Assembly (NCBI GenBank): GCA_017881245.1
Contig: JADGRC010000061.1
Location: forward strand, 1 to 46,974
Direction of reading: 5' to 3'
Source: Pseudomonadota bacterium
GTDB lineage: Bacteria > Myxococcota_A > Polyangia > Fen-1088
DNA: 46,974 bases
The notes beneath the pieces are model-generated. The model was given only the letters and a program-made list of their open reading frames with translations, was not told the DNA's origin and made no database searches. The translations under genes were made by a program, and so were the position numbers. Positions 23,296 to 24,731 of the stretch are shown here, piece after piece; positions within the stretch are counted from its first letter, which is position 1; every line of letters begins with the position of its first letter.

Positions 23296-23541
23296 ATGCG
23301 TCACCGCCCCCGCCTCGGCCGCGCGTTGTTCGTGATGGCGATTGGGATGTCGGTGGCGACAGTAGGGGGCTGTGCCCACCAGCCGCCCGTGCAGCCTTGG
23401 CAGCGCGAGTACCTGTCGAAGCGTGCGATGCGCTTCGACGCCGATCCGTTGGAGATGCACTTCCGCCAGCACATGTTCGGTTCGCGCGAGGGGTCGGACC
23501 TGGGATACGGCCAGCCCGGTGGAGGCTGCGGCTGCAATTGA
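23296..23541 (+). CDS. DUF4266 small lipoprotein with Cys-rich C-terminus
   Basis: An 81-residue lipoprotein: the hydrophobic leader ends in VGGC (lipobox), followed by HQPPVQPWQREYLSKRAMRFDADPLEMHF and SREGSDLGYG. The C-terminus reads GGGCGCN. The DPLE / HMFGSRE / GGGCGCN pattern is the hallmark of DUF4266. The last two Cys at the extreme C-terminus suggest a metal site, a disulfide or a modification site; which one is unknown. Its TGA overlaps the TTG start of the DUF3570 barrel gene (TTGA, 23538-23541), so the two are probably translated together and act together at the outer membrane. Confidence 0.88.
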   Translation: MRHRPRLGRALFVMAIGMSVATVGGCAHQPPVQPWQREYLSKRAMRFDADPLEMHFRQHMFGSREGSDLGYGQPGGGCGCN

Positions 23542-24731
23542 CCTCGAAGTCGCGCGCTTATCTGGCGCTGATCGCGGTATTGCTCGTCGGCTCGCGCGAT
23601 GCCCGCGCGGAAAGCCGCGTGACCGTGCGCGGGCAGTACTATCGCGAACCGTCAACCCGTGTAGTTCAGCCGGTGGTCGAGATGACCGCCGATTTGCCTG
23701 CGGGTCTGGACTTGTCCGCCCATTATCTCCTCGACGCAATCACGTCGGCCTCCGCCGCGGCCGGTCCTTCGGGGGACAACATCTTCACCGAATATCGCAG
23801 CGAATCCGGCGTCGGGATCGGCAAGACCTGGTCGCGCGTGCGCGTCGGCGCTGCGTACAAATACAGCGGCGAATCGGATTACTGGTCGCACACCCTCGCC
23901 GCGTCGGTCGCGGTGCGCACGTGGCAGGACACGGGCACGCTGGCCCTGTCGGGCGGTCTCGGGTGGGATCAGGTGGGGCGGCGGCCGCAAGGCAACGCCC
24001 CGGTTCCGATGGCCGCGGCGGGAGCCCCCTGCGCGCCGAACGCGCTGCACACGTGTCCTCTAAACAGCGTCTTTGCCGGGGTCGGGTACAGCCAGGTTTT
24101 GTCGCCAACCTGGCTGGTGCAAGCGGGTTACGAGGTCGTCGTGCTGAACGGGTATCTCGCAAGTGCCTATAGGGCCGTGTCTCCCTACGGCATGGAGAAG
24201 GTTCCCGACAATCGCGTACGCCAGACTCTGTCAGCCCGCGCGGCCAAATATTTTCCGTGGACGCGCACCGGTGTTCAGTTGCACTACCGCTATTACTGGG
24301 ATCTGAAATGGGATGGATCCGACCCTCTGTTGGTCGCGCGGTCGGCGGTCATCGACGACCAGAGTAATCCGTGGCAAGTTCGGAGCCACACAGCCGAGGC
24401 CCGGGTTTTTCAAGCCGTGGGCGGCGATCTGGAACTGCGGGTGACGGGACGGTATTACTCGCAGGGCGCCGCGAACTTCTGGTGCGATCAGCGTCAAGAC
24501 CCCATGTGCTACCAGGGGGCGCAAATCTATACGAGCGACCCGAAACTGCAGCCGGTGGGTACCGTCTTCGTCGAAGGCAAGGTCTACTGGGAAGCGACGC
24601 GCTGGCGCGACCGGGAGTTCCTCGGCTGGTTCTCGGATGGAACGTTCGAGTTGTCGTATGGAATGTTTTTTCAGGATACAGCCTTCGCCACCGCCCATGT
24701 TTTGCAGACGGGCTATTCGTTGCCTTTCTGA
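23538..24731 (+). CDS. DUF3570 outer-membrane beta-barrel protein
   Basis: The 661-codon ORF in the track is the real gene plus about 264 unrelated upstream codons antisense to the exonuclease. The natural start is TTG 23538, giving LTSKSRAYLALIAVLLVGSRDARA-ES, a clean signal peptide with AxA cleavage, and a 397-residue protein. The mature part matches DUF3570: VTVRGQYYREPSTRVVQPVVEMTADLPAGLDLSAHYLLDAITSAS, then IGKTWSRVRVGAAYKYS and many amphipathic strands. It closes with HVLQTGYSLPF, an outer-membrane insertion signal. Four Cys (APCAPNALHTC, WCDQRQDPMC) lie in predicted loops. As I recall, DUF3570 and DUF4266 genes travel together, often with thioredoxin-like and ApbE flavin-transferase genes, which are not present here. 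Function is unknown; an envelope redox or transport role is inference. Confidence 0.85.
   Translation: MTSKSRAYLALIAVLLVGSRDARAESRVTVRGQYYREPSTRVVQPVVEMTADLPAGLDLSAHYLLDAITSASAAAGPSGDNIFTEYRSESGVGIGKTWSRVRVGAAYKYSGESDYWSHTLAASVAVRTWQDTGTLALSGGLGWDQVGRRPQGNAPVPMAAAGAPCAPNALHTCPLNSVFAGVGYSQVLSPTWLVQAGYEVVVLNGYLASAYRAVSPYGMEKVPDNRVRQTLSARAAKYFPWTRTGVQLHYRYYWDLKWDGSDPLLVARSAVIDDQSNPWQVRSHTAEARVFQAVGGDLELRVTGRYYSQGAANFWCDQRQDPMCYQGAQIYTSDPKLQPVGTVFVEGKVYWEATRWRDREFLGWFSDGTFELSYGMFFQDTAFATAHVLQTGYSLPF

Follow-up and report, generated by a model that had tools for sequence, protein, structure and literature searches.

The closest described relatives of the gene pair analysed here are the DUF3570 clusters of Meheust et al. 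(2021, eLife, PMC8238504). That study shows that ApbE flavinylates the Chlorobium luteolum DUF3570 at two [S/T]GA[S/T] sites, and that the gene clusters of DUF3570 also contain DUF4266, ApbE, thioredoxin-like proteins and, in many cases, DsbD. It also reports that the CXC of DUF4266 is conserved, suggests that it may undergo redox cycling, and mentions iron-transporter genes in some DUF3570 clusters; in the passages searched, DUF3570 is not called an outer-membrane barrel. For another, model substrate, about 50% of flavinylation was left after a Gly-to-Ala change in the motif (reviewed in PMC12052999), and at -167 mV the reduction potential of CGC peptides is close to the value of PDI (PMC4316792). 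An earlier note on our locus had proposed the pair as an undescribed envelope system, which was not borne out, as both the ApbE flavinylation of DUF3570 and the redox proposal for CXC are found in PMC8238504. The pair is real, well conserved and mostly described before; what is new is a branch of DUF3570 that lacks the glycine of the flavin motif (henceforth referred to as Gly-less), its association with ApbE, and the location of the site, presumably on the outer face.

The window (the whole 46,974-nucleotide stretch of DNA that was analysed) is one contig (C262) of a 6.17-Mb metagenome-assembled genome of 534 contigs (G000), taken to come from a relative of myxobacteria, and it contains the following features:

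23296..23541, + strand: gene of the small DUF4266 lipoprotein, 81 amino acids (ATG start, TGA stop; PF14086 match)
23371..23373, + strand: Cys26, the predicted lipidated cysteine (VGGC, lipobox-like, by the lipobox rule)
23518..23538, + strand: C-terminal GGGCGCN of DUF4266 (GCGCN invariant)
23538..23541, + strand: TTGA overlap of the DUF4266 stop and the DUF3570 start (translational coupling; AATTGA kept in the own-family type III loci read)
23538..24731, + strand: gene of the DUF3570 outer-membrane beta-barrel, 397 amino acids (TTG start; PF12094 match; barrel model)
23538..23609, + strand: signal peptide predicted at barrel residues 1-24 (putative cleavage between ARA and ESR)
23733..23753, + strand: DAITSAS at the position of the ApbE motif, mature residues 42-48, Ser for Gly (motif Dxx[ST]GA[ST] from PMC8238504 and PMC12052999)
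24030..24056, + strand: C141 and C149 (mature numbering), CX7C, in predicted long loop L4 (AlphaFold2 model)
24483..24509, + strand: C292 and C300 (mature numbering), CX7C, in predicted long loop L7 (AlphaFold2 model)

The sequence and the Pfam matches agree with the coordinates and the reading as a lipoprotein/barrel pair that the earlier note had given. The DUF4266 profile (PF14086) matches the lipoprotein with E=4.3e-20 and 72.8 bits (curated cut-off 27) over 50 of its 50 model positions, and the DUF3570 profile (PF12094) matches the barrel with E=3.6e-25 and 89.1 bits (curated cut-off 25). The lipoprotein combines an N-terminal signal with a C-terminal CXC. Its TGA (23539-23541) overlaps the TTG of the barrel frame (23538-23540), as had been claimed, and the further loci of this type read in the host's own family (L018, L019, L021, L022, L025 and L027; L128 is the L021 contig) all have this AAT-TGA/TTG overlap. 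Compared with the same-genus locus L018, dN/dS of the window copies is ~0.17 for DUF4266 and ~0.08 for DUF3570, and thus both genes are under purifying selection. Exonuclease, glycosylase, SDR and membrane-protein genes flank the pair in a synteny that is kept in the host's own family, with no functional link between these flanking genes and the pair being evident.

Among 241 genomes of the host's class, DUF4266 was found in 157 and DUF3570 in 159, and every one of the 157 DUF4266-positive genomes also had DUF3570, so the expectation that the two families occur together held. The second expectation, conservation of the terminal cysteine pair, held as well, since the pair is essentially invariant: GCGCN ends all 84 DUF4266 tails first read, a set taken from the best profile scores and hence a choice that favours tail conservation. 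Starting from DUF3570 instead, a same-strand ORF ending in CXC was present in 55 of 58 loci, many of them already in the earlier set; the exceptions comprise a fragment and a single locus that entered the count twice. A further 80 loci from other phyla were retrieved by the GGGCGCN pattern, and their tail conservation is therefore by construction. In an alignment of 37 sequences the invariant DUF4266 residues are H59, E65, G77, C78, G79, C80 and N81. Divergent tails do occur (GGGCGCTN, GGGCGCSN and GGGCACGN). Four genomes (G040, G160, G202 and G154, at loci L107, L121, L102 and L127) carry a divergent DUF3570 with motifs like DIVTSASADALDAVSSAS, and there the accompanying DUF4266 tails end in CGCTN, CGCSN or CACGN.

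The common partners had been described as absent, and within the window this is correct: no ApbE, thioredoxin-like or DsbD gene was found there, and the local cluster is minimal, as had been supposed. It does not hold for the genome, which has a single ApbE (contig C126) and three more DUF4266-DUF3570 pairs on contigs C150, C342 and C58 (L009, L010 and L011). The C150 DUF3570 keeps SGAT; those of C342 and C58 are Gly-less and have C..CH-type neighbours. The C342 pair, a paralogue, lies near genes for a DUF2271 protein (VTGAT), a TlpA-like protein, a DsbD-thioredoxin protein and CHxxCH proteins. Since the C150 DUF3570 (SGAT) and the C342 DUF2271 (TGAT) are canonical ApbE candidates, the presence of ApbE in this genome is no proof for the window barrel. 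Neither a thioredoxin gene nor ApbE was found next to the type III pairs, the class to which the window pair belongs; thioredoxin-like genes stand beside 60 of the relatives' loci, and DsbD in several. No gene for a multihaem cytochrome or haem-binding protein was found next to the window pair. Type III pairs also occur in other families (L031, L032, L036, L039, L044, L071, L078, L081, L088 and L185), where a secreted protein of ~650 amino acids with a weak DUF2271-like start often lies directly upstream on the same strand; the L036 copy has a CFVATAAYGS segment near its C-terminus. We considered this protein as a DUF2271-like flavin partner and rejected it, the flavin motif being missing in 12 of 14 copies and no copy lying near the window.

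The canonical DUF3570 motif is Dxx[S/T]GA[S/T]. The window barrel contains no [S/T]GA[S/T] and has DAITSAS, of the form DxxTSAS, at the place of the first one. Throughout the Gly-less classes the glycine is replaced by Ser, Asn or Ala. In type III, the window form, which extends over many Myxococcota families, Ser (once Thr) takes its place; type II, present in Myxococcota and Proteobacteria, usually carries a tandem of two Gly-less motifs. D42, A47 and the hydroxyls at 45 and 48 are kept in essentially all Gly-less sequences, and R63, E88, D90, R202, R227, D231, R281 and Q285 are about equally conserved across all types, a comparison in which the pattern placed four canonical sequences (L086, L087, L095 and L097) in type III. 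Judged from these conserved residues, the Gly-less site is maintained and shows no decay, and the idea that the window motif was simply lost was dropped, as the remaining site residues are invariant. Two loci of Pseudomonadales/Gammaproteobacteria (L175 and L177) have an intermediate DUF3570 with both SGAS and DVVTTAS and with an ApbE gene immediately downstream; they could help to date when the glycine was lost or gained. In four Proteobacteria Gly-less clusters (L258, L261, L264 and L265) a protein with an HZS_alpha domain (hydrazine synthase alpha-like) and CxxCH motifs occurs with an SH3-barrel protein, an OMP, a TlpA-like protein, DUF4266, DUF3570, a TPR-like protein and, frequently, ApbE; these genes form a conserved operon, of which no description was found in the literature searched.

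AlphaFold2 models the window barrel with 16 strands (pLDDT 88.9, pTM 0.86), and the canonical Chlorobium DUF3570 likewise as a 16-strand barrel (pLDDT 91.3, pTM 0.88). The flavin-motif position is alike in the two models, at the end of strand 3 and the start of loop 2, and both Chlorobium SGAS motifs (residues 55-58 and 71-74) lie in this strand 3/loop 2 region. The connections on the motif side are long and the opposite turns mostly short. N-in/C-in is the usual rule for outer-membrane barrels, and with it the long connections place the motif site presumably at the long-loop, extracellular mouth, a placement that rests on the topology of the models. The four cysteines pointed out before are real and fall in the two predicted long loops L4 and L7; among the type III loci read, this four-Cys pattern is confined to own-family members and was consequently rejected as a feature of DUF3570 as a whole. 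The best Foldseek matches of the window barrel are generic porins (OprD/OccK, OmpG and similar), with TM-scores of 0.37-0.53 on query length and 7-11% identity among the top 50, and a sequence search of the PDB with the window barrel gave no match.

Outside Myxococcota, ApbE lies within 6 kb of 38 of 45 canonical loci compared with 3 of 24 Gly-less loci, a contrast that speaks against flavinylation of the Gly-less site and at first suggested its loss, but that is partly an artefact of the 6-kb flank: in half the genomes ApbE is 6-21 kb off. Whole-genome searches found ApbE in all 20 genomes outside Myxococcota with a Gly-less gene, in 10 of them within 22 kb (6-21 kb) of that gene where 0.57 would be expected at random positions, and in five of them ~6.3 kb upstream on the same strand. 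In four of the genomes (G242, G247, G253 and G256) there is in addition a canonical cluster next to which lies an ApbE of its own; G258 too has a canonical cluster, the second ApbE being 15 kb away. In the eight extended Gly-less clusters that were read with crude gene calls, no protein with D..[ST]GA[ST] was found. With ApbE close by in 10 of 20 genomes against an expected 0.6, and with no canonical motif found in the clusters read, ApbE probably still accepts the Gly-less site as a substrate. In a FastTree phylogeny most ApbEs of canonical clusters form one group (split support 0.98), outside which fall the ApbEs of Gly-less clusters and of Myxococcota, together with three canonical exceptions, L182, L175 and L177, the latter two having SGAS in a DUF3570 that is otherwise type II-like.

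Among 112 genomes lacking FMN_bind and DUF2271, ApbE is present in 64 of 70 with DUF3570 and in 9 of 42 without, as raw counts uncorrected for shared ancestry. In the host's own family ApbE occurs in 8 of 8 pair-positive and 0 of 10 pair-negative genomes, which is a clean but single contrast, several of the genomes also holding canonical copies. Seven genomes picked among ApbE-positive Myxococcota (G196, G229, G139, G040, G160, G190 and G204) have only Gly-less DUF3570 and no FMN_bind or DUF2271, yet keep one ApbE; G195 shows the same pattern, apart from an incidental DFPSGAT. In G153 (96% complete, 20 contigs), which has a type III pair, ApbE was not detected. The literature searched yielded no report of a flavinylated DxxTSAS or DxxSSAS motif. 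Weighing these patterns, we put the chance that the window barrel itself is flavinylated slightly above one half.

The pair likely serves as an outer-membrane module for electron transfer by thiol and flavin. More specifically, we see an even chance that it is a stand-alone module of the DUF3570/DUF4266 kind, with a flavin on the barrel and a cycling CGC. The barrel would most likely carry one FMN, covalently bound to Ser48 of D42-A-I-T-S-A-S48 at what the model suggests is the long-loop, extracellular mouth, and the single ApbE encoded on another contig would attach it while the barrel is still in the periplasm and not yet folded into the membrane. The DUF4266 lipoprotein at the outer membrane would present its flexible Gly-rich tail, the Cys-Gly-Cys of which may cycle between dithiol and disulfide. 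We infer that the tail contacts the barrel and that electrons would pass from periplasmic donors of the thioredoxin/DsbD type to the CGC tail and from there to the barrel flavin. A bolder form of this proposal is a haem-free electron wire, in which the tail would thread the 16-strand lumen so that CGC reduces the FMN at the mouth, and a separate ApbE lineage would have co-evolved for DxxSSAS/DxxTSAS; this form we hold to be rather doubtful.

The Gly-less barrels could instead be unflavinylated, the mouth residues forming a flavin-independent site for ligand passage or docking of the DUF4266 tail, the flavin being an addition of the canonical branch and the pair a flavin-free thiol/transport module. 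Replacement of the canonical glycine throughout the Gly-less classes would fit such a module, as would the ApbE that adjoins mainly canonical genes, the type III pairs adjoined by neither ApbE nor thioredoxin, and the genome G153 without ApbE. However, the D, the A and the two hydroxyl residues of the motif are kept in essentially all Gly-less sequences, 10 of 20 genomes have an ApbE inside the extended Gly-less cluster or close to it with no canonical motif found there, and ApbE is retained in the Gly-less-only Myxococcota genomes; we consider a flavin-free module unlikely, if a serious contender. A metal site is another use to which the CGCN tail could be put: His59, Cys78, Cys80 and the C-terminal Asn/carboxylate would be the ligands of Cu(I), Fe or Zn, with the pair handling metal at the outer membrane. 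The invariance of His59, Glu65, Cys78 and Cys80 in the 37 aligned sequences and the iron-transporter genes of some clusters (PMC8238504) speak for it, whereas the recurrent neighbours examined included no recognisable metal-transport family, and the divergent tails CACGN and CGC[TS]N indicate that the geometry varies. Thiol redox is favoured over metal because of the recurrent thioredoxin-like and DsbD neighbours in relatives, which point to thiol exchange and leave the metal site improbable.

The exactness of the last five residues, GCGCN with the terminal Asn included in 84 of 84 tails, would also suit a recognition tag or a target for covalent modification by another enzyme, with no redox or metal group of its own. 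Besides ApbE, no recurrent modifying-enzyme family was recognised near the pair, and ApbE requires Ser/Thr, neither of which the conserved tail contains, and such a tag seems very improbable. That the pair is just a porin and a structural lipoprotein, neither of them active in redox chemistry, we hold to be hardly credible: the fold-search matches are ordinary porins and the loop Cys pairs could be simple disulfides, but the charged network and the motif are invariant across phyla, flavinylation has been demonstrated within DUF3570 (PMC8238504), and relatives have ApbE, thioredoxin and CxxCH-protein neighbours.

If the thiol/flavin reading is true, DUF3570 would be an outer-membrane barrel whose outer face bears a covalent flavin, a location undescribed in the literature searched. 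ApbE would then recognise a wider motif than the Gly-Ala consensus from which its substrates are listed, and surveys based on [S/T]GA[S/T] would overlook a class present in two or more phyla. GCGCN, being almost totally conserved, offers a small, easily mutated handle on the putative meeting of thiol and flavin carriers in the envelope, and G153 is a natural test case for the flavin-free alternative.

Compared with the DsbD-type cluster of PMC8238504, the window has the same two families, the same pairing, the C-terminal CXC and the same motif position in the barrel sequence. It differs in that genes for ApbE, thioredoxin and DsbD are missing from the surroundings of the pair, in that the barrel has a single Ser-for-Gly motif, DAITSAS, in place of two [S/T]GA[S/T] motifs, and in that it is of a Myxococcota type that the text of the paper does not describe. 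The Gly-less clusters of Burkholderiales and Gammaproteobacteria share with the window the Gly-less motif, the invariant network and a DUF4266 immediately upstream; in contrast to the window pair, which stands alone, they mostly have two tandem motifs, are accompanied by CxxCH and thioredoxin partners, and frequently have ApbE at a distance of less than 22 kb. With monomeric porins such as OprD/OccK and OmpG (PDB) the window barrel has in common the outer-membrane beta-barrel with long loops on one side, and it is set apart from them by low TM-scores, 7-11% identity and no sequence match in the PDB. In porin-cytochrome conduits, e.g. MtrCAB, electrons cross the outer membrane through a barrel. 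The window pair would work alike if electrons traverse the outer membrane via its barrel, except that it has no haem-binding gene, the barrel is smaller, and the putative cofactors are a flavin and a thiol.
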